NCBI GenBank assembly: GCA_024636315.1
Contig: JAGXHJ010000065.1
Coordinates: forward strand, 24,689-88,688
Direction: 5' to 3'
DNA: 64,000 bases
Origin: Methylophaga sp.
Lineage (GTDB): Bacteria; Pseudomonadota; Gammaproteobacteria; Nitrosococcales; Methylophagaceae
Below the pieces are notes generated by a model that worked only from the letters and a program-made list of their open reading frames with translations, was not told the DNA's origin and did not search any database. The translations under genes were made by a program, and so were the position numbers. This document shows positions 2,787 to 29,607 of the stretch, piece by piece (position 1 is the stretch's first letter; the number at the start of each line of letters is the position of its first letter).

Positions 2787-3401
2787 ATGCCAGGCACATT
2801 AAGCTTTTCTGATTTACAAGCCGATCACAAAGCCGCGTTAGGTAGTGCTGATAGTAAATTTAAGTCAGCTAATAATGCCGATTATGAGCGACATTTGAAT
2901 AATGCCGCCTTGGCTTTGTCACGTATTCGCCGGCGAACCTTGGTTGATACATTAACATTGGTGGCTGGTAAAAGTGATTATCCAGCCCCTAATGATTTAG
3001 TCTCGCCTAAAGTTTCAAGTTGGGGTCAGGGAAAACTTCAACCGTGGGAACCGGGTTACTGTAAGTTGCCACGAATGACAATGTTTGAAGGTGAATCAGG
3101 CTTAATGATTAATCTTAATCCTGCACCAACTGGCTCACAAATAAGCATGTTTGGCTCTGGTTATACTTATTTTTATTTAGCCGCACATCATATTGATGCA
3201 GATCCAACTAAAACGACATTCAAAGCCGCCGATCGTGATGTGTTTTTATTGTTTGCATTGATAGCGGCCATGACTGAACTAGCGGCTATGGGTGTCACTG
3301 AACCTTTGCAACTGCATCGCGGTATGGGCTCTATGCCTGCCAGTGGCACACCACAAGCATTAGTCGAACTATTAAGTAAACAAGTGGACTTGCGGCGATG
3401 A
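2787..3401 (+). CDS. Head-tail connector / adaptor protein
   Basis: 204 residues from ATG 2787, which directly follows the preceding stop. The N-terminal helical segment (KFKSANNADYERHLNNAALAL) and the later LVDTLTLVAGKSDYPAPNDL resemble phage head-tail connector (gp6-like or gp15-like) proteins: a helix bundle followed by 'L.LvaG.~YplP.d'. The following gene is a gp10-like protein and the one after a tail terminator candidate, the usual order in siphoviruses. It overlaps the next gene by 4 bases (ATGA). Confidence 0.6.
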   Translation: MPGTLSFSDLQADHKAALGSADSKFKSANNADYERHLNNAALALSRIRRRTLVDTLTLVAGKSDYPAPNDLVSPKVSSWGQGKLQPWEPGYCKLPRMTMFEGESGLMINLNPAPTGSQISMFGSGYTYFYLAAHHIDADPTKTTFKAADRDVFLLFALIAAMTELAAMGVTEPLQLHRGMGSMPASGTPQALVELLSKQVDLRR

Positions 3402-3895
3402 GTAGTTTTGTTGTTGAGGTGAATAATCGCGTTGTGGTCAATGCGTTGCAAAAGGCGACTAAATCGATGCCTTCAGATATTGATCATGCTGTACAACGAG
3501 CGGCGATTGAAGTTGGTCGCATGCTTAAACAAAATTCACCCAAGGCATTTTCAACGTTGACCAACAGCATTAAAGAAGATCAAGTCGCGTTAATGGAATG
3601 GCGTGTTGGACCACATGTTGATTATGCTCAATATGTTGAAGAGGGCACGAGCGGTGGCGGTAATGTGCCTTTCCCAGCTTTATTGTCCTGGATAAAAGTA
3701 AAAGGCATTCAGCCTCGTAATCCCGAATGGAATTTAGATGATCTTGCATGGGTTATCCAAAAATCAATACTGGCCAAAGGTACGCGTAAACAACCTTTTG
3801 TACAGCCCGTTATTGATAGTGGTTTTGCACAACAAAGGCTCAATCAACTTGTTGCTCAAGCAGCTGCAAGATCAATTGCTGAGGCTGGCTTGTAA
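3398..3895 (+). CDS. HK97 gp10-like head-tail joining protein
   Basis: 165 residues. The pattern 'VNALQKATKSMPSDIDHAV', 'AAIEVGRMLKQNSPK', 'VGPHVDYAQYVEEGT' and 'RKQPFVQPVIDSG' is that of the HK97 gp10 family (neck or tail-completion proteins). These carry a helix, then a beta sheet with a Y(A)xYVExGT motif, and a C-terminal P-F(x)xPA helix. Placed between the connector and the tail terminator candidate. The overlaps at both ends (ATGA and TAATG) show a tightly packed late operon. Confidence 0.75.
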   Translation: MSSFVVEVNNRVVVNALQKATKSMPSDIDHAVQRAAIEVGRMLKQNSPKAFSTLTNSIKEDQVALMEWRVGPHVDYAQYVEEGTSGGGNVPFPALLSWIKVKGIQPRNPEWNLDDLAWVIQKSILAKGTRKQPFVQPVIDSGFAQQRLNQLVAQAAARSIAEAGL

Positions 3896-4302
3896 TGTGG
3901 TTCGATATATTAATGGCTTTAAATAACCACTTGATAGCCACGTCCGAATTAAACGGCGTGGCCATTGTTGTGGGTTCTGATACTAAGATCCCGCAAGGTG
4001 CAACGGTAGTGCTTATTCGCGGTACGTTTGACCCAAAAACTACCGAGCCTAAATCGCGAGATAGTCAGCAACTCTATGTTGAATGTTGGCAATGGGACGA
4101 AAGCGAATCACCCACAAAAGGCTATGAGAAATTAGCAGAGCTCGAAGGTATTGTTATGAAAGCATTGAATGACTTTGGTGCTGGAAGTAACCGCGTTAAT
4201 AACAAACAAGTTCGAGTGATACTCGGACAAACAGAACCTGATGGCGATGCATTTCGTCCCAGCGTAGGCAGCCGAACTGCCGTTACCGTTCAATGGCAAT
4301 AG
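3895..4302 (+). CDS. Probable tail terminator protein
   Basis: 135 residues. The N-terminus (WFDILMALNNHLIATSELNG) is an amphipathic helix. A central beta strand pair follows (ATVVLIRGTFDPKT and QQLYVECWQWDE), then a helix (KGYEKLAELEGIVMKALND) and C-terminal strands (KQVRVILGQTEP...RTAVTVQW). Size, secondary-structure order and position between the gp10-like and tail tube genes fit the tail terminator fold. The residues themselves are not strongly diagnostic. Confidence 0.5.
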   Translation: MWFDILMALNNHLIATSELNGVAIVVGSDTKIPQGATVVLIRGTFDPKTTEPKSRDSQQLYVECWQWDESESPTKGYEKLAELEGIVMKALNDFGAGSNRVNNKQVRVILGQTEPDGDAFRPSVGSRTAVTVQWQ

Positions 4303-4313
4303 GAGACAATACC

Positions 4314-4466
4314 ATGCCTGAAAAAAAAGTAATAAAAGTAAAAGTGAAGCTTGTTGCACCTCACACCCATGCTGGTGAAAAGTGCAAAAAAGGCGACACT
4401 ATTGACGTCACCACAACACAAAAAACGTGGATGGCAAAACGTGGCTTAATTGAAGGAGAAGGCTAA
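4314..4466 (+). CDS. Small DUF7210-like phage protein
   Basis: A 50-residue ORF from ATG 4314 behind AGGAGA, ending in a stop that shares its last base with the ATG of the tail tube gene. The sequence reads VKLVAPHTHAGEKCKKGDTI followed by TWMAKRGLIEGEG. This is the pattern of a very short phage family ('PHTHAGxxxxxGDxIxV...WLxxxGxI') often found just before tail tube genes. Function unknown; probably a small structural or assembly factor. Confidence 0.75.
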   Translation: MPEKKVIKVKVKLVAPHTHAGEKCKKGDTIDVTTTQKTWMAKRGLIEGEG

Positions 4467-5218
4467 TGGCCGGTGTATTAGCGTCAGGTACGCTCTACCT
4501 AAATCGTATTATTAATGGTACTAAACAAGGCCGCGTAAAAGTGCCAGGTGTGGCCACCTTTAGTATCTCCCCTAAATCAGATAAAAAAGAAGCAACATCA
4601 AAAGACAAAAATAAATATGGCCAAGTGGTTGCCTCTGTTTTATTGCCACAACCTACAGAGTTTAAAGTCACCATTACCGATGTCGATGGCCCTGCATTAG
4701 CGATGGCCTTGATGGGTGACTTATCAGTGTTAACAGTAGGTGGCGGCACGGTTACTGGTGAAGCCGTGACAGCAAAACTTGATACCTTTGTTGATTTGGC
4801 TAACAAAAATCTCACTGCTTTGAGTGTTATTGTTAAAGATGCAGCCGATATCATTACGTATGTTGAAGGTACCGATTATGAATTGAACTATGCGTTAGGC
4901 TGGGTTAAGCCTATTTCTGGCGGTAGTATTGCTGCAGATGCTGTACTGCATATTGATTATGCGCATGGTGCGATTACAGGCCAAACTATCAACGGTTCAA
5001 CATTAGCCGAAGTACGTGGCGAATTTGTCTTGGACGGACAGAACTTAGCCGATGGCAAAGATTTAACCGTGTATGTGGATGAAGGTGTTGTCGCTACGGA
5101 TGGCGAAGTTGATTTTATGTCTGATGATTTCGTTGAACTATCTTTAGCGGGAACGATGGTTACACAAACAGGCAAAAACCAACCGTATGTGGTTGAACTT
5201 GGTAAAACATTGAGTTAA
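4466..5218 (+). CDS. Major tail tube protein
   Basis: 250 residues. It opens with LASGTLYLNRIINGTKQGRV and proceeds through alternating beta strands, typical of siphovirus tail tube proteins, with a C-terminal part FVELSLAGTMVTQTGKNQPY. The central insert (GTDYELNYALGWVKPISG...HIDYAHGAITG) resembles the beta hairpin also seen in the head and tail tip proteins of this element. It is followed by a strong terminator, consistent with being the last gene of the head/early-tail transcription unit. Confidence 0.7.
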   Translation: MAGVLASGTLYLNRIINGTKQGRVKVPGVATFSISPKSDKKEATSKDKNKYGQVVASVLLPQPTEFKVTITDVDGPALAMALMGDLSVLTVGGGTVTGEAVTAKLDTFVDLANKNLTALSVIVKDAADIITYVEGTDYELNYALGWVKPISGGSIAADAVLHIDYAHGAITGQTINGSTLAEVRGEFVLDGQNLADGKDLTVYVDEGVVATDGEVDFMSDDFVELSLAGTMVTQTGKNQPYVVELGKTLS

Positions 5219-5230
5219 CCAGCACTAGTG

Positions 5231-5253
5231 GTTGGTCGGGTTTTCCGACCAAC
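5231..5253 (+). terminator. Rho-independent-like terminator after tail tube gene
   Basis: Perfect 9-bp stem GTTGGTCGG (5231-5239) / CCGACCAAC (5245-5253) with a GTTTT loop, 12 bases after the tail tube stop. The following run is not T-rich, so efficiency is uncertain. It separates the structural unit from the accessory segment that follows. Confidence 0.6.
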
Positions 5254-5296
5254 TGAAATGTTAAACGATTTAGCCTGTTAGGGATGATGGGCTATT

Positions 5297-5869
5297 TTAC
5301 TGTGTTAATGCACCATTATAAGTGCCATCTAATGTATAGAAGCCAATCACTTCATCGAGGATAGTGGCGCCGAAAGCATTTTTCCCACGGTATGTCATTA
5401 CAACCATAATGTGATTTTCTTTATTAACGTAGCGTGTTGAAACGTGTTCAAAACTGCTGGGATCATTCATGACTGCTTTAGTTCTCTTCACAAAGTCTCG
5501 GTGAGAGCCATCCCACGCACTAAATTGGCTTTCTATCCTTTCTGTTGGTGTTATGAATTTTTCAACATAGACTGGCGCTGCCACTTCCTTGTCCGTAGTT
5601 TCTGAACCGCCAAACAATAAAATAAAAACCCAAACAACAACGGCGCTAGAGATTAGAATTATATTTCTTTTTGCTATCCCCATCTCTTTTGCGCTAAGGG
5701 TTTTTGAAGCTCCAATTGGTTTTCTAGTTTGGCTTTTTTGTGTTGATTTAGATTTCCCTAAAACACGTAATTCTTCTTCAGTAAATAAGACATTGCCACT
5801 GTCTTTTTCTTCTTTCATTTTGGCAACAGCCTCGGTGTAACTGAGGTTTGTTTCTTTCTTTTTAAACAT
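5297..5869 (-). CDS. Reverse-strand membrane moron protein
   Basis: 190 residues, transcribed against the late genes, a typical moron layout. A cytoplasmic N-terminal part (about 1-68) rich in K/E/S is followed by one membrane helix (IILISSAVVVWVFILLFGG, about residues 71-89) and a periplasmic C-terminal domain. That domain contains NDPSSFEHVSTRYV, HIMVVMTYRGKNAFGA and FYTLDGTYN. The same 'DPxSxxxx...vxxxYRxKNxxGA' motif occurs in the exported protein at 19178, so the phage carries two related periplasmic domains with different membrane attachment. Function unknown; an effect on the host envelope or on superinfection is conceivable but unproven. Confidence 0.65.
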   Translation of the reverse strand: MFKKKETNLSYTEAVAKMKEEKDSGNVLFTEEELRVLGKSKSTQKSQTRKPIGASKTLSAKEMGIAKRNIILISSAVVVWVFILLFGGSETTDKEVAAPVYVEKFITPTERIESQFSAWDGSHRDFVKRTKAVMNDPSSFEHVSTRYVNKENHIMVVMTYRGKNAFGATILDEVIGFYTLDGTYNGALTQ

Positions 5870-5920
5870 ACGATATTCCTTTATATTTGCACTGATGCAC
5901 TATAAATCAACAATGACTTG

Positions 5921-5950
5921 TTGACAACAAAAGCGCAGTTCAGATATGAT
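5921..5950 (+). promoter_or_regulatory. Sigma70-type promoter for the BRO-gene leader
   Basis: TTGACA at 5921-5926 and TATGAT at 5945-5950, separated by 18 bases: a perfect -35 and a near-perfect -10. Transcription would start near 5957, at the foot of the first leader hairpin, giving a leader of about 220 bases before the BRO gene. It lies in the gap behind the reverse-strand moron. Confidence 0.8.
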
Positions 5951-5956
5951 TCATTT

Positions 5957-6176
5957 GCACTGGCAAAATCCAGTGTCGGAGTTTGGAAGCTTCGGAATAT
6001 TACAGGACGCCCAATCAGCCGCGTCACGCGGTTTTTTTGTGCCATAATATTATGGTGGTTGTGCGTGGGGGAGCCTTCGGGTTCGCCGGTGCCTGTATCC
6101 GGTCTTCCAACTCTGCGTACAATCATCACCCTGTTTGGAAGTAGGGTGATGGTTTAATCCATACAGGAGATTAACC
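5957..6176 (+). ncRNA. Structured leader RNA with P4-immunity-like layout
   Basis: Elements in order: hairpin 5958-5975 (CACTGG/CCAGTG); box A GTTTGGAAG (5981-5989) and TACAGG (6001-6006); a terminator (6019-6038); a 14-bp palindrome (6042-6055); a UUCG-capped hairpin (6071-6084); box B with CCTGTA (6092-6097) and CTTCCAACTC (6104-6113). Last come hairpin 6124-6151 with 9-bp stem and box C GTTTGGAAG in its loop (6133-6141), then TACAGG (6162-6167) overlapping the Shine-Dalgarno. Box B is complementary, in the right antiparallel order, to both A and C. Phage P4 controls immunity through a small RNA (CI RNA) whose seqB pairs with seqA and seqC of the leader and causes premature termination. I infer the same kind of control here. 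Confidence 0.75.
6019..6038 (+). terminator. Terminator inside the BRO leader
   Basis: CCGCG-TCA-CGCGG (6019-6031) followed by seven T (6032-6038): a compact intrinsic terminator about 75 bases into the leader, upstream of the gene. Its place between the box A and box B elements makes it the probable decision point for transcription of the BRO gene. Confidence 0.8.
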
Positions 6177-6701
6177 ATGAACTATCATCTCAACCCGCTT
6201 TCTGTGGGGCAATTTTCCATTTCTGAATGCGCCATGGTCGATAATGTGCCGCATGTCACCCGTAAAGCGATGGGTGAATTTCTCGAATATGCCGATCCCC
6301 AAAATGCAATCGATAAAATTTTAGAGCGAAATCCATTCATTAATTCCTATTCAGTACCTGTCAATATGTCAGGTGGTGATGGAAAAAATTACGATATTCG
6401 CGTTTATCATCCGGTCGGTTTTATGTCAGTCGTATTATCTAGCAATCAACCCAAAGCTAAATTAGTGAAAGAAGCTGTTGCCAATTTGGTTTATGACTAT
6501 TCACGGCGCGATAAAATTTCAGCAGGGTTGGAGGTTCAGATCCGCTATCAGAAAATTTCGATCATCAACAAACTTGACCAAGTAAAAACACAGTTTGCCC
6601 GTGAAGGATTGATAGCGAGCCTTAGACAAGTGTGCCAGCAATTAGGTGAGCCAGTGCCCGATATTGGCCTATTAGGTCTGGGGGTGAGCCATGAACGCTG
6701 A
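6177..6701 (+). CDS. BRO-N domain phage antirepressor-like protein
   Basis: 174 residues, ATG 6177 behind CAGGAGA. Residues about 18-110 form a BRO-N type DNA-binding domain: VPHVTRKAMGEFLEYADP, NAIDKILERNPFINSYSVPV, YDIRVYHPVGFMSVVLSSNQ, KLVKEAVANLVYDY. A helical C-terminal part ends in VPDIGLLG, a tail that recurs in phage proteins of this type. BRO-N and related antirepressors bind DNA or repressor proteins and affect lysogeny. The gene sits behind a P4-like leader between tail tube and tape measure, where tail assembly chaperones are usual; so it looks like an inserted regulatory moron. It overlaps the next small gene. Confidence 0.75.
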   Translation: MNYHLNPLSVGQFSISECAMVDNVPHVTRKAMGEFLEYADPQNAIDKILERNPFINSYSVPVNMSGGDGKNYDIRVYHPVGFMSVVLSSNQPKAKLVKEAVANLVYDYSRRDKISAGLEVQIRYQKISIINKLDQVKTQFAREGLIASLRQVCQQLGEPVPDIGLLGLGVSHER

Positions 6702-6876
6702 TCAGTTACGAGACTGCGGTAAATTCTGCACCGTTTCACAAGGGCTAGCAGTGTTAAGTTATATGATGTTTGAGTTTCGTGACAACACGGATTCACAGAT
6801 TAATTTTGAATATCTTGTTGCACAAGTGCAGCTTATTAATATTTGTCTTAACGAGGCGATGGAGGTGTTTGACTAA
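6691..6876 (+). CDS. Small hypothetical protein coupled to BRO gene
   Basis: 61 residues, ATG 6691 overlapping the BRO stop by 11 bases. Helical, with LRDCGKFCTVSQGLAVLSYM and INFEYLVAQVQLINICLNEA. No family recognised. In P4-like satellites and prophages the antirepressor is often followed by a small helical partner; a joint function is inferred from overlap only. Confidence 0.55.
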   Translation: MNADQLRDCGKFCTVSQGLAVLSYMMFEFRDNTDSQINFEYLVAQVQLINICLNEAMEVFD

Positions 6877-6950
6877 GCCAATTTCCCCCCTGTTTTGCTT
6901 GACCAAAGCGTTGATAATGCCTAGCACTAACTAAAGGTAAAGCAATCGCG

Positions 6951-6988
6951 AAAAGCCACGGTTTCCATTATGGAACCGTGGCTTTTTT
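6951..6988 (+). terminator. Strong terminator before tape measure gene
   Basis: The arms AAAAGCCACGG and CCGTGGCTTTTTTT form a long stem (one bulged T) around TTTCCATTATGGAA, ending in a seven-T tract. It closes the BRO unit. The tape measure ATG follows 11 bases later, so that gene must rely on antitermination or on read-through, as is common in phages. Confidence 0.8.
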
Positions 6989-6999
6989 TGGGAGAAAGT

Positions 7000-9900
7000 A
7001 TGGCAGGCAAAGCGGTTGAGATTCTACTCAAAGCAAAAGACTTCGCTTCTGCACAAATTGCAAAAGTAAATGAACGTGTCCGAGCAATCGGCCCTGCTAG
7101 TGATAGCTCGGTGGCTGGCAATGAGCGTTTATCTTCATCCTTTTCAACGCTAACATCACGCATTGGTGCTTTTATTGGTGCGACAGCAGGCTTTATTGCT
7201 GTTAAAGGTTTTTTTGAAGGTGTAATTAATACTGGTAGCAAGTTTGAAACATTACAAACTCAGATCGACGCGGTAACTGGAAGTGCTAAAGCTGGTGAGG
7301 AAGCATTTTCATGGATAAAACAATTTGCTAAAGACACCCCGTTCCAGCTTGATGAGGTTGCTACTTCATTTATAAAACTCAAAGCGTTTGGTCTTGACCC
7401 ACTCGATGGCACCTTTCAAAAGTTAGTCGATCAATCATCCAAATTGGGTGGTGGCCAAGAAAAATTAAATGGCATTATTATCGCGGTAGGCCAAGCATGG
7501 GCTAAGCAAAAATTGCAGGCTGAAGAAACGCTGCAGTTAGTCGAGCGTGGTGTACCTGTTTATGATCTGCTTAGTAAAGCTTTAAGCAAGACAACGGCCG
7601 AAATACAGCAAATGAGTTTTGATGGTGAGTTGGGCCGAGATGCAATTAAGGCGCTCATTGATGAAATGGGTAGTAGCTCATTAGGTGCCGCCGCGGCACA
7701 GATGGAAAATGCTTCCAGTGTCGTTTCAAATTTAAAAGATCAAATTACTGAGTTTTTCGCTGAAATTTCTGATCAGGGCGCATTGGAATACTTCAAAAGC
7801 CAACTAAAAGAACTCTCAAGCACTATTAAGCAGATGGTTGCCGATGGCAGTTTGAAAGAGTTTGCCAAAGATATAGCTGACGGCATGATATCAATGGCCA
7901 AAGCAATCAAAACGACTGTTAGCACCGTCGTTTCTTTTACCTCAGAAATAAAAAGCATGGTCGCCGCTTTTATCACGGTTAAATTTGTTCAATATACCGC
8001 GGCTTTTTTTCAAATAGCTAAGGCTATAACAGCGGCCAAATTTGCACAGATAGGCTTAAACATTGCAATGCGTGCCAACCCGATTGGGCTTTTAGTTACT
8101 GCTATTGGTGCGTTGTACATTGGGATTGAAGCCTTAGTTAATAAATATTTTGACTGGTCGACAAGTGCTGAACGAGCAGCAAGAGATCAGCAATTAGTCG
8201 CCGATCAAGCTGAGGCCGCTGCTGAAAAATACCGAGCATTAACTGAGCAACTTGGCTTGCAGATCACTAGTGAAGAAGATTTGAAGGCGGCTGTTGATGC
8301 TGGTTTAATTTCACTCAATCAAAAAACACAGGAATATGAGCGCGTAAAAACAGCGGCTGAATTAGCCACACTTGCCCAGAATAACTATGTATCAGCCTTA
8401 ACCGGTGTTACGGCTGAAATTAACTTGCAAGCGAATCAGATGGTAGCGGGTGCATTTGCTGGCCAACAGTTCAAAGCCAAGCTAGATGAGATGACAGCAA
8501 GTAGTCAAGGGCTTGCTGGTTCATTATCGTCTATGTCGTCGGGCGTTTTTGCTGAATTTATGGCGGCATCTGAAGAAATGTTAGCTGGCAACTTTTTAAC
8601 AGATCTTGAAACGGCTGATCTAAAACTCGTATTAATGTCAGAGTCATTTAAACGGCTTGGCGTTGATACTGAATTACTACAATCTGGTTTAACTTCTGCT
8701 GGGTTGGCTGCGGTCAAGACTTTTGCATTTATTGCCAATCAAGCCGAAGCAACAGGTGACGTATTATTACTTTCAATTGATGCTGCATTAACTAAAATTA
8801 AAAATAATAGAGGTATTGATGCGATTACTGCCGAAGTAGTTAAGTTGGCAAATACAGGTCGTTACACAAGCGATCAAATCCTTGCAATGATGAGTAAGAT
8901 CGATGCCGCCGCTGAAAAACTCATAAAGCCAATTAAAGAAATAAATAACCTCCTATCAAACTTGGGAAAGGACATTGGTGCAGCGGATACCGTAGAAGCA
9001 CTTGAAGACTTAAGCATAGCTGCGACAGATGCTTTTTCACAGGGAAAGATTACAGCCGAAGAATATAATGATCTTATCGAAGCTATTCAAAATAGGTTGG
9101 CTGATGTTAATGCGTTATTAGAGAGGCAAATACAATTACAGCAACAATTGAACGGCGAAAATGCTGACGGTGACGAACAGCAAGACGATGCTGAACGAAA
9201 CCATCATCGCGAAAGAGAAAAATCAATACAAATAACGGGTCGATTGGGTGAAGCCACGGCGAAAGCACTCGACATATCAAACAAAGCCCGAGTTGGAACA
9301 ATTCTAGGTGTTCAAGCAATACGCCAATACTTTGCCGGCGTAAATACGTTGGCAGCTCGACTACTTGAAGCAAGTGAGAACGCTGATAAATTTGCAGATA
9401 GCGTACTTAATACAGTGGATAGTGGTAACGCATCAGAACAGCAAATGGCCGGCTATGTTAAGCGATTGGAGCAAATGATCGCCGGCGGAAAGAACCTAGA
9501 TAATCAATCACTCAGCAAACTACAAAATGCATTGTCAGCAGCCAAGAGCAAGATGGCAGCTCTTAAAGATGAAACAAAATCAGCTCAAGATGTGATAGCT
9601 GGGCTTGCAGGTGAGCTTGCCGGACTAGAAGGCGATCAATTGAAAGTTCAAGCGATAGAGGCTCAGCAACGGCGACTTGATCTGGAAGGAAAGATAGCTC
9701 AGGCACAGGCGGAAGGTAATGCAGAGGCGGTGGCTAGCTACAATAAAGCGCTGTCGTTGTTAGACAAGATAAACGCCAAAAAGAAACAGCAAATAATCGT
9801 GCAACAACAGGCTGACGCACAGCAAAACAATCAGCAGCAACAAAGCAGCACTAAGCAGAACGGCTCATCACCTATCTCTTCATCGACCAGCAATGGTGCT

Positions 9901-10038
9901 CAGGCAATACCCTCAGGCCGAACTGTGTCGATCAGTTTTGTTGATCCAAAAGGTGAGACTGTGACAGGCGTATTCCCTGAACGAGACGAAAACAAGATGA
10001 TCGATATTTTCCGTAAATCGGGGGCGGTAACACGATGA
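7000..10038 (+). CDS. Tail tape measure protein
   Basis: 1012 residues from ATG 7000, chosen for GGAGAAAG just upstream; an ATG at 6970 lies inside the terminator stem. The N-terminal region has the tape-measure domain (SKFETLQTQIDAVTGSAKAG, FAKDTPFQLDEVATSFIKL, LQLVERGVPVYDLLSKAL). Hydrophobic helices lie at about 315-375 (AAFITVKFVQYTAAFF, IGLLVTAIGALYIGIEALV). Long coiled-coil helices and a Gln-rich, low-complexity C-terminus follow (QQQADAQQNNQQQQSS). Tape measure length sets tail length; at the known 1.5 Å per helical residue this would give a tail of roughly 150 nm, an estimate only. Overlaps the next gene by 4 bases. Confidence 0.92.
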   Translation: MAGKAVEILLKAKDFASAQIAKVNERVRAIGPASDSSVAGNERLSSSFSTLTSRIGAFIGATAGFIAVKGFFEGVINTGSKFETLQTQIDAVTGSAKAGEEAFSWIKQFAKDTPFQLDEVATSFIKLKAFGLDPLDGTFQKLVDQSSKLGGGQEKLNGIIIAVGQAWAKQKLQAEETLQLVERGVPVYDLLSKALSKTTAEIQQMSFDGELGRDAIKALIDEMGSSSLGAAAAQMENASSVVSNLKDQITEFFAEISDQGALEYFKSQLKELSSTIKQMVADGSLKEFAKDIADGMISMAKAIKTTVSTVVSFTSEIKSMVAAFITVKFVQYTAAFFQIAKAITAAKFAQIGLNIAMRANPIGLLVTAIGALYIGIEALVNKYFDWSTSAERAARDQQLVADQAEAAAEKYRALTEQLGLQITSEEDLKAAVDAGLISLNQKTQEYERVKTAAELATLAQNNYVSALTGVTAEINLQANQMVAGAFAGQQFKAKLDEMTASSQGLAGSLSSMSSGVFAEFMAASEEMLAGNFLTDLETADLKLVLMSESFKRLGVDTELLQSGLTSAGLAAVKTFAFIANQAEATGDVLLLSIDAALTKIKNNRGIDAITAEVVKLANTGRYTSDQILAMMSKIDAAAEKLIKPIKEINNLLSNLGKDIGAADTVEALEDLSIAATDAFSQGKITAEEYNDLIEAIQNRLADVNALLERQIQLQQQLNGENADGDEQQDDAERNHHREREKSIQITGRLGEATAKALDISNKARVGTILGVQAIRQYFAGVNTLAARLLEASENADKFADSVLNTVDSGNASEQQMAGYVKRLEQMIAGGKNLDNQSLSKLQNALSAAKSKMAALKDETKSAQDVIAGLAGELAGLEGDQLKVQAIEAQQRRLDLEGKIAQAQAEGNAEAVASYNKALSLLDKINAKKKQQIIVQQQADAQQNNQQQQSSTKQNGSSPISSSTSNGAQAIPSGRTVSISFVDPKGETVTGVFPERDENKMIDIFRKSGAVTR

Positions 10039-10415
10039 CAATAACACTTGATGGCATCACGTTACCGGCGGATCTTGATTGGCCTGATCGTTACAGTTGG
10101 TCGCCCGTTGTTCAGTCACTTGATTATTCATTGACAGGTGCGCCCGTTATTCAAGAAGCGGCAAAAACGGCAGGTCGTGAAATTACCTTAGTCGGTGATA
10201 ACGAGTCGGCGTGGGTACTGAAATCGGTACTCGATCAGCTGTTAGCCAAAGCCAATACCGCCAATCTTGTGATGACATTAACGTACTACGGAACCTCGTT
10301 TAATGTGATGTTCCGTCGTAACACCAGCCCTATTGATGCTCAGCAAATCGTACCGTTTGCGAATCCACAAGATGATGATTATTACAGCCTGACACTCAGG
10401 TTTATTGAAGTTTAG
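10035..10415 (+). CDS. Tail protein (distal-tail/minor tail)
   Basis: 126 residues. It begins ITLDGITLPADLDWPDRYSWSPVVQ, a beta-rich pattern ('DGixLPddLxWxDeY.w~pv.qs') seen in small phage tail proteins between tape measure and tail tip. The C-terminus (DDDYYSLTLRFIEV) is also characteristic. Start overlaps the tape measure stop (ATGA). Probably sits at the distal tail ring or links the tube to the hub. Confidence 0.65.
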   Translation: MTITLDGITLPADLDWPDRYSWSPVVQSLDYSLTGAPVIQEAAKTAGREITLVGDNESAWVLKSVLDQLLAKANTANLVMTLTYYGTSFNVMFRRNTSPIDAQQIVPFANPQDDDYYSLTLRFIEV

Positions 10416-19710: not shown

Positions 19711-20853
19711 TTATTTCACGCGTTTAAAATTATCGTCATTCTCACAATAGGCTAGGGCATCGAAACAAAGCCCTGTTAGTCTCATGATGTCGGATGGTTC
19801 AGGTAAGTTTATGTGGTCATTAGGCTCAATGGTTAGGCCTGAACGCTCAACTTCTTGTCGATGTTTGGCTGTTAATTCAATGCCAAAGTGGACTGTGGGG
19901 CTCTTTTTATCGCCATGATAATGCAATAACCAGCGATTGTTTTTGCCTTGAAATACAATACCAAAATAGCTCGCCGTATCTTTTGCTTCGATATTTTCAA
20001 CCGCTGTTTTTGTTTTCAAAATAGTCTGGGTATGTGCCAATAATTCGCGTTCTTGATGGGTGGAAACAATATTTGAATTATTGGGGTCAACGACTGCGGC
20101 AAGTGGGTCAAATGGTATTTCTTCTATCTCTTGAGCTGGTTCGGTGGATGATAAGCTATCAACAACCAATGAGCTTAGGACGTCTTTAACGGCTTTTTTA
20201 ACGATTGGCGTCATGTTATCGAGAGTTTTTTGTGTCATTCGTAATGTGGGATCGGCTTGATTGGCCACAAATTTAACGAAGTCAGGATCGAGATTTTTTA
20301 GGCTATTTCGAATGACCGCCTTAAAGCTGGTTAGATAGGTTAAATCTTCAGCTAGTGTTCGCATGTTTTCTGTCTTCAGATAACCATAACGGAATTTAGC
20401 CAATTCAGATGAATCCAAAATACCCAAGTTTTTGAAGTCAATTTCAAGGAAAGGTTTTTCATCCATGATGTTGTTGTTAGAGAGATCAGTGTAAAAGGCC
20501 CATTGATGGCCATTGGTTACCGCACCAATGCAGACACTGGGGGTTGCATTGAAATAGCGAGACAGTTGTGGCATGTGTTTGGGCAGTTTTTGATCAAAAG
20601 GTTTAGCCTCAATGAACATGACTAATTCACCTTCGGAGTAAAGTGCATAATCAACACGCTCACTATTTTTGGCGCCGGTGAAATCAGCACAGTATTCAGC
20701 TCTGACCATAAGCGGATTAAACGGGCTATAACCTAAGATGTCTAGCAACGGCAGAATAAGTGCCTGTTTCGTTGTTTCTTCGGTTTTGCAGTGAGGCCCA
20801 GCTTCTGCAATATGCTCGCTATGTTCTTTTATTCGTTGTGTAAAATTATCCAT
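19711..20853 (-). CDS. HsdR N-terminal-type nuclease domain protein
   Basis: 380 residues from the ATG at 20853 (MDNFTQRIKEH), chosen for AAGGAAG just upstream; an upstream ATG at 20877 is possible. The N-terminal ~150 residues match the type I restriction HsdR nuclease domain: KTEETTKQALILPLLDILGY, then NSERVDYALYSEGELVMFIE with AKPF, giving the D...ExK core of a PD-(D/E)xK nuclease, all three residues intact. No helicase motor or HsdM/HsdS partner is nearby. The C-terminal part (SYFGIVFQGKNNRWLLHYHG) is unassigned. Lies in one reverse operon with a tandem-RHH protein. Possibly an anti-competitor nuclease; this is inference. Confidence 0.75.
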   Translation of the reverse strand: MDNFTQRIKEHSEHIAEAGPHCKTEETTKQALILPLLDILGYSPFNPLMVRAEYCADFTGAKNSERVDYALYSEGELVMFIEAKPFDQKLPKHMPQLSRYFNATPSVCIGAVTNGHQWAFYTDLSNNNIMDEKPFLEIDFKNLGILDSSELAKFRYGYLKTENMRTLAEDLTYLTSFKAVIRNSLKNLDPDFVKFVANQADPTLRMTQKTLDNMTPIVKKAVKDVLSSLVVDSLSSTEPAQEIEEIPFDPLAAVVDPNNSNIVSTHQERELLAHTQTILKTKTAVENIEAKDTASYFGIVFQGKNNRWLLHYHGDKKSPTVHFGIELTAKHRQEVERSGLTIEPNDHINLPEPSDIMRLTGLCFDALAYCENDDNFKRVK

Positions 20854-20869
20854 CACCACTTCCTTATTA

Positions 20870-21328
20870 TTAATCACTCAAATCCCGAATTAAATTCATT
20901 ACTGCTTTTTTGTGTTTAGGCGAGAGCTTCTTAAACATGATCGTTAAAGCAGCGTCTTCAAAGTCGTTGACCTTGCTTTCTTGTATGCCATGGTGCTTGG
21001 TTGGGCTAGATTCCCATCGTTGAGCAAAAAACAATCGCATGACGATTTCTTGATTTAGGCTATTTCTATGCACAGTGCCGTGCATGCGTAACGATTCCTT
21101 TAGTTTTTCATCTAAGCGGAACTGGAACACCTCAGTATTAAGTTTTGTCGGGCTTGATTGTTTAAACAGCGCAACATCCTGTTCTGAAAACTCCTTATCT
21201 AAGACTGAATTAAGCTTAAATATAACTTCACTATTATTACTTCGTCGGCTTTCTTTAGCCGACAAAATCAACCAGTCCAATGTCTGGACAGGTAAACGCA
21301 GACTGTAGGAAACCGTTTTATTTTTCAT
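20870..21328 (-). CDS. Tandem ribbon-helix-helix (Arc-like) DNA-binding protein
   Basis: 152 residues from the ATG at 21328; a TTG at 21337 could extend it by three residues. Two RHH units are visible: VSYSLRLPVQTLDWLILSAK with NSEVIFKLNSVL, and VFQFRLDEKLKESLRMHG with NSLNQEIVMRLF. Each has the strand, helix A, N-S turn and helix B of Arc/MetJ repressors. A single chain carrying both halves of the usual dimer is unusual. A helical C-terminal tail follows (IMFKKLSPKHKKAVMNLIRD). It opens the reverse operon with the nuclease and stands divergent to the 54-residue Arc-like gene at 21417. Confidence 0.8.
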   Translation of the reverse strand: MKNKTVSYSLRLPVQTLDWLILSAKESRRSNNSEVIFKLNSVLDKEFSEQDVALFKQSSPTKLNTEVFQFRLDEKLKESLRMHGTVHRNSLNQEIVMRLFFAQRWESSPTKHHGIQESKVNDFEDAALTIMFKKLSPKHKKAVMNLIRDLSD

Positions 21329-21400
21329 TAGATGCAAAGTGTAGCTATTTTATGTTGACGTAAATAGATGCAATCTGTATTGTGAATCCATATTGCATTT
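21329..21400. promoter_or_regulatory. Divergent promoter/operator between two RHH genes
   Basis: TAGATGCAA occurs at 21329-21337 and again at 21365-21373, 36 bases apart, and an inverted TTGCAT lies at 21393-21398. A forward promoter TTGACG (21355-21360), 17-base spacer, TATTGT (21378-21383) straddles the second copy, which would be an ideal place for repression. Arc-type repressors bind short repeated half-sites of this kind. The left copy touches the start codon of the reverse RHH gene. One or both RHH proteins are the likely binders; this is inference. Confidence 0.6.
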
Positions 21401-21416: not shown

Positions 21417-21581
21417 ATGACTACATCAACAGAGAATAAAGTGAAATCTTCATCTATTAGGTTCCCTATAGAATTACTGGATGAGCTTACTGTCGCTGCT
21501 AAGAAAAACTTACGGTCAACAAACAGCGAGATAGTGCTTAGATTGAAACGAAGCTTAGTCGCTGGCCGCGATAAAAATTAA
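21417..21581 (+). CDS. Arc-like ribbon-helix-helix repressor (54 aa)
   Basis: ATG 21417 follows AAGGAAG. 54 residues: basic N-terminal arm, SSIRFPIELLDELTVAAKKN, then STNSEIVLRLKRSL. The RFP strand, helix A, 'STNSEIV' turn and helix B are classical Arc/Mnt features. Divergent from the tandem RHH gene with candidate operators between them. By analogy with P22 Arc/Mnt it may control early genes or the accessory operon. Confidence 0.85.
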   Translation: MTTSTENKVKSSSIRFPIELLDELTVAAKKNLRSTNSEIVLRLKRSLVAGRDKN

Positions 21582-21722: not shown

Positions 21723-22181
21723 ATGAGTAACATGTACGACCCAATTGAAACAGCCATGTATGACATGGTGCATGATTTCCCCGGCGGCGCTGTCAAGCTG
21801 GCTGCCCGTGTCAATATGAATGCTGGCACGCTCAATAACAAAATTAACCCCTCCATGGAATCTCATCATTTGACGCTGAAAGAAGCCGTCAACCTGATGC
21901 TCGCGACCAATGACCTTCGTTTACTACACGCAATAGGCACCGAACTCGGTTTTGTATGTGTGCCTGTTGGGCATTTGGCTGGCGTTTCTGATATTGAATT
22001 TTTGTCTGTTTTTAGCAGAGCAATGTCAGAAGTCGGCGATATGAGTCAAGCCGTTTACGAGGCTTTCAGCGATGGGAAAATCACGCGAAAGGAAGTGGAG
22101 TTAGTGCGTAAAGAAACGGTTGAAGCTATGGCTGCACTGGCTGAACTGCCGTCTCGACTTGAATCAATGTGTGATGAGTAA
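21723..22181 (+). CDS. Phage regulatory CII-family protein
   Basis: 152 residues. It starts YDPIETAMYDMVHDFPGGAVKLA, then ARVNMNAGTLNNKINPSMESHHLTLKEA and a C-terminal helical part (DGKITRKEVELVRKETVEAM). The pattern 'a.~~~v~dfpGG...LA~~~G~~~~tL~nKlNP....~~ltl~Ea' is the phage regulatory CII family (a lambda-repressor-like helix-turn-helix). In lambda CII activates the lysogeny promoters. Ends at a strong terminator, so it forms its own transcription unit. Confidence 0.85.
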   Translation: MSNMYDPIETAMYDMVHDFPGGAVKLAARVNMNAGTLNNKINPSMESHHLTLKEAVNLMLATNDLRLLHAIGTELGFVCVPVGHLAGVSDIEFLSVFSRAMSEVGDMSQAVYEAFSDGKITRKEVELVRKETVEAMAALAELPSRLESMCDE

Positions 22182-22250: not shown

Positions 22251-22844
22251 ATGGAAATGAAAAGATATTTAACGGTTAGTGAAGAAAAAACATTGTTTAA
22301 AACGGTCGATGGCGTGGCGGGTGTATTGGCTCAGCGCGATGGTGCTTGGATGTTATTGCTTCGTCAAACTGGCATGCGTATTGGTTCATTAGCCGGATTA
22401 ACGGTTGCTGATGCGAGACATGGCCTTGCGACTAATTATTTAGAACTAAAAGATGAACATGCCAAAGGTGGGAATGGTTACCAGATATTTTTAAACAAAA
22501 CATCAAAGGCCTGTTTACGAGTTTTGTTAAGCAACCGTATCGAAATGGGTTACACCGCCGAACCTGATATGCCGTTAGTGATGGGCCGTAATAATCAAGG
22601 TTTGAGCATTCGTAGTTTTCAAAGTCGTATGCGAATTTGGGTTGATAAATCATGCATTGCCATGCCTGCTTCGCCACACTGGTTTCGGCATACGTTGGCA
22701 ATGCGAATTATGAGCCAATCCACTGCCACTAATAAATTGGGCGTTGTGCAAGCAGCATTGGGCCATTCAACCGCTGATGCAACGATGATTTATACCCGTC
22801 CAAATCGTGAAGATGTTGCTTTAGCAATGGAGGAAGCGTCATGA
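22251..22844 (+). CDS. Short tyrosine recombinase (catalytic domain only)
   Basis: 197 residues. The catalytic set is visible: R in TGMRIGSLAGL, the K-containing beta hairpin region (KGGNGYQIFLNKT), H-x-x-R in PHWFRHTLAMRI, H in LGHSTADATM, and the Tyr nucleophile in IYTRPN. It lacks the N-terminal SAM-like core-binding domain of ordinary integrases, which normally adds 100 or more residues. It may act as an auxiliary invertase or resolvase, or a regulator. The element also has a large serine recombinase at its end, so this is probably not the integrase. Overlaps the next gene by 4 bases (ATGA). Confidence 0.8.
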   Translation: MEMKRYLTVSEEKTLFKTVDGVAGVLAQRDGAWMLLLRQTGMRIGSLAGLTVADARHGLATNYLELKDEHAKGGNGYQIFLNKTSKACLRVLLSNRIEMGYTAEPDMPLVMGRNNQGLSIRSFQSRMRIWVDKSCIAMPASPHWFRHTLAMRIMSQSTATNKLGVVQAALGHSTADATMIYTRPNREDVALAMEEAS

Positions 22845-27959: not shown

Positions 27960-28104
27960 CGTTGTTGTCGAAACTAGGGGCGAGATCGACATAGATGCAG
28001 TATCTGACTTCTTGTTACCGTTGCTCTTTAAGCATCTAACTGATAATAAAATTAATGAAAAACCAAGCCGCCCTTTATCTGAGATCCAGCAAAGACCGCA
28101 GTGA
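27952..28104 (+). CDS. Small hypothetical protein ahead of serine recombinase
   Basis: 50 residues (MADVVVETRGEIDIDAVSDF then LLPLLFKHLTDN). ATG 27952 overlaps the end of the preceding gene by 8 bases; ATG 27946 is an alternative. It overlaps the recombinase start by 50 bases. The coupling resembles small excision factors next to serine integrases, but the sequence gives no proof. Confidence 0.5.
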   Translation: MADVVVETRGEIDIDAVSDFLLPLLFKHLTDNKINEKPSRPLSEIQQRPQ

Positions 28105-29572
28105 TGTAAGCATTTCTGCACAACGACGAGAGTTATATTCGCTGGCTAAACAGCGAAATTTAGTTATCGTTGATGAGTATGTCGATGCGGTTGAGTCTGG
28201 TTCAACAGAAAACCGCCCAGGCTTTCAAGAAATGTTTAATGCGATTAAGTCTCGTGATCGTGCATGGGATACTATTTTACTGCTTGATACGAGTCGATTA
28301 TCGCGCCGGCAATACATTTCCCATTTCTTTGAATATGAGTGCGAAAAAAAGAACATTACGCTTATATATAAGAGTCTACCTGTTGAAGATCCTATCAGTG
28401 CCATGATGCTGAAGGCTGTATTGCAAGCAATGGACCAATGGCATTCAATGATCAGCAAGCAAAAAGGGCTTGCTGGCATGTCTGAGAATGTTAAACAGGG
28501 TTTTCGTGCCGGTGGCAGTGCACCTCGAGGTTATTCTCTTGAGAAAGTCACCACTAAAACGATTCGTGATGGTGTCGCTGTGACTAAATCACGATTGGTC
28601 CCTAATGATGATGCTGAATTAGTGGGCGAGTTATTGTCATATCGAGCAAAAGGTCTACCTCGTCAACGTGTTCATGACAGCCTTGATATTAAGTGGCCAA
28701 CAAATTCAACGTTGTCGATGGAATGGAATGCATTAACGTATGCTGGCCATACGGTATGGAATGTTCATGCTGAGCGACGTGAAGGTAAAAGCATTACAGG
28801 AATGAAGCGCCGGCCACGAAGTGAATGGCATATAAAAGAAAATACACACCAGGCATTAATCTCTCACCAACAAGCTGAAATGATACTGTCTCAATTAGAG
28901 TCTAAACAGCGTAAATCTAAGCCAACCAAGGCTATTTACTTACTCTCAGGTCTGCTTTATTCAGCTGAGACAGGTGAGAAGTATCACGGTGATCGCGCTA
29001 AATATTATCGGCTTGGTAAATCAAAACGCATCCCGTGTGACACGATAGACGATGCAATAATGAAACAGATCCTTTCGGATTTGCAATCAAATTACTTTAT
29101 CAAGGCCATTACCAACAAAGCACGCGAAAAACTAAATCCACAAACTCGTAATGTGAAACGTGGCGCCATCACTCGAAAAGTTGACGATATCTCGAAAAAG
29201 ATAATAAAACTGATGGATTTGATTACAGAAGTCGATGATACCGCGCCCTATATGGCCAGAATTAAAGATCTGAACACGCAGCGTGATGAACTTGAACTGA
29301 AGGTATATGAGATGAACCGGCTGGAAATGGACTCTAAAGACATCAATGAGTTTGATATTAAGCGTGCTTTAGCGTCATTGGCTACTGAATTACAAACATT
29401 GGATAGGGATCAGCTGAAGGATATGCTTTCCGTAATAATTAGCAAAATCAACGTTTTAGAGTCAACCCCCCAAAAGAGGGAACCCCCTAGAGCTGAAATT
29501 CACTATAGAATCAACTCTAGGGGGGTTGTAATGGCGTCCCCAAGGGGGTTCGAACCCCTGTTACCGCCGTGA
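28055..29572 (+). CDS. Large serine recombinase (phage integrase)
   Basis: 505 residues. Resolvase domain at 5-150: AALYLRSSKDRSDVSISAQ (catalytic Ser12 in the Y-x-R-x-S context) and LLLDTSRLSRRQYIS with the conserved Arg residues. A Recombinase domain follows at about 155-270 (AGGSAPRGYSLEKV). The zinc-ribbon region is degenerate: the usual 'GLLxCxxCG' reads GLLYSAETGEKYHG, with no Cys pair. A C-terminal coiled coil follows (RIKDLNTQRDELELKVYEMN). The last 14 codons (MASPRGFEPLLPP) are read from the antisense of tRNA-Glu, so the natural C-terminus depends on the attachment site. Presumed integrase of the prophage. Confidence 0.9.
   Translation: MKNQAALYLRSSKDRSDVSISAQRRELYSLAKQRNLVIVDEYVDAVESGSTENRPGFQEMFNAIKSRDRAWDTILLLDTSRLSRRQYISHFFEYECEKKNITLIYKSLPVEDPISAMMLKAVLQAMDQWHSMISKQKGLAGMSENVKQGFRAGGSAPRGYSLEKVTTKTIRDGVAVTKSRLVPNDDAELVGELLSYRAKGLPRQRVHDSLDIKWPTNSTLSMEWNALTYAGHTVWNVHAERREGKSITGMKRRPRSEWHIKENTHQALISHQQAEMILSQLESKQRKSKPTKAIYLLSGLLYSAETGEKYHGDRAKYYRLGKSKRIPCDTIDDAIMKQILSDLQSNYFIKAITNKAREKLNPQTRNVKRGAITRKVDDISKKIIKLMDLITEVDDTAPYMARIKDLNTQRDELELKVYEMNRLEMDSKDINEFDIKRALASLATELQTLDRDQLKDMLSVIISKINVLESTPQKREPPRAEIHYRINSRGVVMASPRGFEPLLPP
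29481..29526. repeat. 12-bp perfect inverted repeat beside the attachment tRNA
   Basis: AACCCCCTAGAG (29481-29492) and CTCTAGGGGGTT (29515-29526) with a 22-base centre, inside the recombinase coding end and five bases short of the tRNA-Glu copy. It could be a recombinase binding arm at the phage end of the attachment site, or an mRNA hairpin. Confidence 0.5.
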
Positions 29573-29607
29573 AAGGGCAGTGTCCTAGGCCTCTAGACGA
29601 TGGGGAC
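29532..29607 (-). tRNA. tRNA-Glu (TTC), copy at prophage junction
   Basis: 76 bases on the reverse strand, encoded CCA included. Acceptor stem GTCCCCA / TGGGGAC, anticodon loop CTTTCAC giving TTC, and T-loop GGTTCGAACCCC. Identical to the copy at 29682 over the tRNA and similar for about 15 bases beyond its 5' end. The prophage abuts its 3' end, and the serine recombinase reads into it on the opposite strand. Confidence 0.95.

Follow-up and report, generated by a model that had tools for sequence, protein, structure and literature searches.

The question raised by this locus is whether the leader of a phage gene in Methylophaga is an RNA-based immunity switch and, if so, which of the known systems it resembles. 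The locus lies in a stretch of 64,000 nucleotides, here called the window, and an earlier note on its sequence had proposed a switch like that of phage P4 immunity, in a prophage of a non-enteric gammaproteobacterium; the host genus bears out the latter designation. We consider it highly probable that this leader forms an immunity element of the C4/isrK type and that a phage antirepressor is under its control. The features on which the analysis draws are the following.

5918 to 5930, no strand assigned: perfect palindrome TTGTTGACAACAA over the -35 box, a possible operator (direct reading)
5921 to 5950, plus strand: sigma70-type promoter, TTGACA-18-TATGAT (direct reading; 11 of 12 consensus positions)
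5957 to 6038, plus strand: isrK-like terminated leader RNA with boxes A1 and B1 (RF01394, 59.4 bits, cut-off 50)
5981 to 5989, plus strand: box A1, GTTTGGAAG, within a hairpin (sequence, fold, covariation)
6001 to 6006, plus strand: box B1, TACAGG (sequence, covariation)
6017 to 6038, plus strand: intrinsic terminator, 7-bp stem at 6017-6033 and T-run to 6038
6048 to 6133, plus strand: C4-type antisense RNA (RF01695, 65.2 bits, cut-off 45; family fold)
6092 to 6097, plus strand: box B', CCTGTA, in a C4 hairpin loop (alignment to RF01695, fold)
6104 to 6111, plus strand: box A', CTTCCAAC, in the unpaired C4 junction (alignment to RF01695, fold)
6121 to 6154, plus strand: hairpin presenting box A2, arms 6121-6132 and 6143-6154, 92% complementary
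6133 to 6141, plus strand: box A2, GTTTGGAAG (sequence, covariation)
6162 to 6167, plus strand: box B2, TACAGG, overlapping the Shine-Dalgarno of the antirepressor gene (sequence; position kept in most loci)
6177 to 6701, plus strand: Bro-N-like putative antirepressor, 174 aa (Pfam Bro-N, PHROG Ant families, gene of the related locus L099)
6691 to 6876, plus strand: small ORF, 61 aa, overlapping the end of the Bro-N-like gene (40% identical homologue 3' of the C4 locus of genome G017)

The strong promoter described in the earlier note is present, with its -35 element at 5921-5926, a spacer of 18 nt and its -10 element at 5945-5950. The likely transcription start, at about 5957, corresponds to model position 1 of isrK and sets the ATG at 6177 behind a leader of about 220 nt, which contains the terminator, as that note had also claimed. 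The terminator stem and T-run are identical in three related leaders (L085, L086 and L099). The leader as a whole folds with z=-4.95, and the minimum-energy fold of 5957-6190 pairs A1/B1 in cis with B'/A'. The palindrome over the -35 box was considered as a shared operator and dropped, as TTGTTGACAACAA occurs in a single exact copy within the window; with no second site there, it was therefore not tied to a repressor.

At the curated Rfam cut-offs, only C4, isrK and tRNAs were matched in the whole 64-kb window. The C4 match is full length (model positions 1-87) with an E-value of 2e-10 over the window, and the corresponding value for isrK is 3e-10; the isrK assignment is based on both a score above the cut-off and an end in an intrinsic terminator. 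Taken alone, the C4 stretch folds at -37.6 kcal/mol (z=-4.1), and its minimum-energy fold is the family structure, an outer stem with two hairpins that leaves A' and B' unpaired. Its targets flank it, with A1/B1 upstream and A2/B2 downstream, B2 being at the ribosome-binding site. A similarity to the Mu-gpT-DE model at 6129-6179 (15 bits against a cut-off of 49) was taken as chance similarity around the hairpin and the Shine-Dalgarno and set aside. The C4 family already has its entry in Rfam, and Weinberg 2010 (PMC2864571) lists both c4 and c4-a1b1. The Methylophaga prophage locus adds a new, well-formed member to a known kind of RNA switch and is not a new device.

The arrangement of the boxes is that read in the earlier note: two copies of GTTTGGAAG, each followed by TACAGG, surround a single complementary element made of CCTGTA and CTTCCAAC, and the second TACAGG lies over the Shine-Dalgarno of the Bro-N-like gene. 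The direct repeat and the A2 hairpin were also recovered independently. The second GTTTGGAAG does sit in a hairpin loop, as had been claimed, but its stem exceeds the 9 bp given there. This hairpin is conserved, exceeding the shuffle mean in 56 of 63 loci, and its left arm doubles as the 3' strand of the outer stem of C4; C4 folding and the presentation of A2 would thus compete.

Among known systems, the c4-icd-ant (immI) region of phages P1 and P7 resembles the window in RNA family (68.8 bits for P1 c4 with RF01695), in box order (A1-B1-[B'-A']-A2-B2), in the position of B2 just 5' of the first gene start and in having an antirepressor operon as target. It differs in that icd stands before ant in P1, whereas no icd-like short gene was found between C4 and the putative antirepressor gene in the window, the Bro-N-like ORF at 6177 being the first gene after the leader; by direct reading, P1 also has a weak terminator-like hairpin in place of the strong terminator of the window. 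In satellite phage P4 (seqA/seqB/seqC), the CI RNA scores 74.9 bits with the C4 model, and the seqA region scores 60.8 bits with that of isrK. The likeness to P4 is thus one at the level of homology, because P4 and the window match the same two models above cut-off. A correction to the earlier note concerns the functional prototype: the P4 replication genes are controlled by premature termination (PMC4825925), while the window has a candidate antirepressor, and the nearest prototypes are P1/P7 c4-icd-ant and Gifsy-1 isrK-anrP because their target is an antirepressor.

Gifsy-1 isrK-orf45-anrP, with STnc1160, shows isrK (79.3 bits) followed by C4 (69.0 bits), the order seen in the window, and an antirepressor-like gene downstream. 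It differs in being described as a dual sRNA/mRNA with coupling through orf45 (PMC4825925), the window being without a comparable coupling ORF with a Shine-Dalgarno. The IsrK paper (PMC4825925) treats P4 SeqA as a structural homologue and STnc1160 as a processed RNA; a text search of that paper found no mention of c4 RNA or phage P1. In the Gifsy-1 locus (L090, 34131-34214, minus strand), the orf45 reading frame overlaps the C4 RNA, and the first AUG of orf45 seems to coincide with the conserved AUGG at the 5' end of C4. The nucleotides of orf45 are reported to be better conserved than its protein (review PMC12197685), a pattern that this overlap may explain. Finally, c4-a1b1 (RF03163, Weinberg 2010) covers the A1/B1 leader of C4 and overlaps isrK, but the window reaches only 20.4 bits with this model, below its cut-off of 46.7.

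In order to place the locus among its relatives, 369 sampled genomes of the class Gammaproteobacteria were scanned with the C4 and isrK models. C4 was found in 24 genomes, isrK in 25 and both in 23, and 39 of the 43 isrK matches lie 7-55 nt upstream of a C4 match on the same strand; the hypergeometric figure for this association is to be read only as far from chance, because matches within a genome are not independent. The four isrK matches without an adjoining C4 match (L083 on contig C126 of genome G255, L087, L088 and L089) could be next to diverged C4 copies or at contig ends. On contig C9 of genome G321 (L064, 1201-2593), four C4 units lie close together; three of them share a B box, and the A box differs in all four.

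Complementarity was assessed in 61 gammaproteobacterial loci by a swap test, in which the longest word shared by each leader box with the C4 of its own locus was compared with that shared with the C4s of other loci. The mean word lengths, own versus swapped, were 7.36 and 4.56 at A1, 6.57 and 4.21 at A2, 7.25 and 4.76 at B1, and 6.98 and 4.57 at B2, and none of 10,000 permutations reached the observed mean at any of the four boxes. As the loci are not all unrelated, this outcome represents a strong pattern and not an exact probability. Words of at least 6 nt were absent at A2 in 15 and at B2 in 20 of the 61 loci, and in most of the 61 B2 lies a few bases 5' of the start codon. The boxes of the window are modest taken alone, with 7 contiguous bp and a bulge for A and 6-7 bp for B; its shared words of 7, 7, 6 and 7 nt are equalled or exceeded by some foreign C4s, and the statistical force comes from the family-wide test. 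An unpositioned duplex-score version of the swap test, significant for the set and weak for the window alone, was replaced by the box-anchored words.

Pairs of closely related leaders display the same pattern directly. Those of G041 and of L099, a viral contig, are 92% identical outside the boxes and differ in box A in a concerted manner at A1, A' and A2: one leader has TTTAGCAG/CTGCTAA/TTTAGCAG, its counterpart TTTGGAAG/CTTCCAA/TTTGGAAG. Likewise, G017 (Methylophaga sp. NORP53, same genus) has the terminator and most of the C4 backbone in common with the window, and the two are 83% identical outside the boxes versus 60% inside. Compensatory change, on which the earlier note had made its proposal depend, is hence what the 61 loci exhibit: the boxes change in step at all three places, and the homologous leaders have, as a set, kept the complementarity among them.

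The gene behind the leader is a putative antirepressor. Its product scores 19.0 bits with Pfam Bro-N (PF02498), below the cut-off of 25.6, matches several PHROG Ant families at E=0.003-0.01, and is 25% identical (E=3e-12) to the product of the second gene after the related L099 leader. The 174-aa frame is intact and has an identical copy in IMG/VR UViG_3300033553_000796; a tblastn search of phages with the protein and a blastn search of phages and plasmids with region 3400-10040 found nothing. Among 36 proteins scanned, the products of the first genes after leaders of the family include Bro-N (8), AntA (3), Rha (2), ORF6N (2), P22_AR_N (1) and KilA-N (1), and other related leaders precede small unassigned proteins.

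The prophage begins after lptG on the contig, a gene identified by eye through its place and its sequence, and reaches to about 29,570 in the window, where a serine recombinase gene (28055-29607) ends over a tRNA-Glu that is the likely attachment site. Two other recombinase genes, of the tyrosine type, are located within this prophage or next to it (window 22251-22844; L101, 12881-13882). The switch is preceded by the major tail protein gene (4466-5218) and followed by the tape measure gene (6970-10038), and it adjoins an opposite-strand ORF at 5297-5869. In G017 this module is found upstream of the capsid gene; position is therefore not part of the element, and insertion in the tail cluster was dropped as a defining feature. 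When the early region was viewed for repressors, Arc-like genes turned up and no CI homologue. These are divergent ribbon-helix-helix genes at 20870-21337 (minus strand) and 21417-21581 (plus strand), the smaller judged by eye, followed by a CII-like gene at 21723; together they form a candidate lysogeny switch, with the Arc-like proteins near 21.3 kb as candidate repressors. Downstream of the Arc-like gene, at 19711-20877 on the minus strand, is an endonuclease-like gene that includes the N-terminal domain of a type I restriction R subunit (phrog_4225, 402 bits).

The mechanism that appears best supported has C4 acting in trans and in cis on both A2/B2 and A1/B1; the analysis shows the family membership, the anatomy and the concerted box changes, and what the mechanism says of RNA production, processing, repression and the target of the antirepressor is inferred from them. 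Transcription from about 5957 would mostly end at the terminator near 6038, yielding a short isrK-like RNA with A1 and B1, and read-through would produce a long mRNA from which a C4 RNA of about 80 nt (6048-6133) is released. The C4 RNA of P1 is processed by RNase P, and we infer a release of the RNase P type here by analogy. Pairing of B'/A' with A2 and B2 would cover the Shine-Dalgarno of the Bro-N-like gene and block translation, and pairing with A1/B1 of nascent leaders would favour termination. The antirepressor would thereby be kept silent in the lysogen, and a superinfecting phage whose boxes are the same would be subject to C4 in trans. The short A1/B1 leader RNA may compete for C4 and so push towards expression. 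This decoy idea agrees with the activation that IsrK is reported to exert in Gifsy-1 (PMC4825925), a single Salmonella study on which the decoy role depends; there, the IsrK effect was no weaker when STnc1160 was co-expressed constitutively.

Two other accounts of the control overlap with this explanation, and the confidence given to them is not exclusive of it. Premature termination of transcription could be the main output, as in P4, with the translation block secondary. The terminator between A1/B1 and C4, identical in related leaders, is consistent with such control, as are the canonical terminators in 31 of 63 loci, compared with 0.6 in shuffles, and the membership of the P4 CI RNA in the same family. 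The placement of B2 over the Shine-Dalgarno in most of the family, however, points to translation, and P1 works with only its weak terminator-like hairpin by direct reading; we regard dominance of termination as rather unlikely.

Control of the Gifsy-1 type is unlikely as well, and somewhat more so. A1/B1 of the long RNA would lock a silent structure with C4 in cis, which the short isrK would open in trans; a small orf45-like ORF would be translated from the conserved AUGG of C4, and C4 need not be a free repressor. The cis pairing in the minimum-energy fold of 5957-6190 is what such a lock would require, Hershko-Shalev 2016 reports a cis lock for Gifsy-1 with compensatory mutants, and a 30-codon frame from the ATG at 6052, within the ORF listed at 5983-6144, ends inside or next to A2. 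Nevertheless, no Shine-Dalgarno is visible 5' of 6052, the 6052 frame stops about 32 nt 5' of the start of the Bro-N-like gene, whose Shine-Dalgarno is overlapped by B2 and not by the upstream ORF, and P1 c4 is described as an antisense RNA that acts in trans (Citron and Schuster 1990, cited in PMC8201110; PMC8546580). These accounts and the best-supported one differ in the relative weight that they give to translation block, termination and coupling of the Gifsy-1 type.

That the locus is a decayed passenger, its motif inherited and its function lost in this prophage, is very improbable: it does lie among clustered tail genes, next to an ORF on the opposite strand and not in the early region, and the host genome is a draft assembly, but it has kept an intact promoter, terminator and C4 fold as well as all six matching boxes, these boxes differ in concert from those of G017 despite the 83% backbone identity, and the downstream frame is intact here and in its identical IMG/VR copy.

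The C4/isrK assignment bears on systems that are usually treated apart, since a single C4 model matches P1 c4, P4 CI RNA, Gifsy-1 IsrK/STnc1160 and the Methylophaga locus, with the isrK match nearly always just upstream. The less obvious part is that isrK and C4 may be halves of one element. We tentatively propose, with somewhat less than even confidence, that they are halves of one widespread phage element, that its six boxes form a fast-changing recognition code in which all three copies of a box vary in concert on a stable backbone, that the short terminated isrK leader is a built-in C4 decoy, and that related prophages, including those of the same genome, are mutually blind. Only 1 of 49 same-genome C4 pairs with similar backbones has both boxes in common, which would fit mutual blindness; the higher sharing of box A among same-genome pairs (6.3%, versus 1.0% among different-genome pairs) cuts across it. 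A common family lets results pass between systems, as in the coincidence of orf45 with the C4 RNA, and the box code would make immunity groups predictable from sequence.
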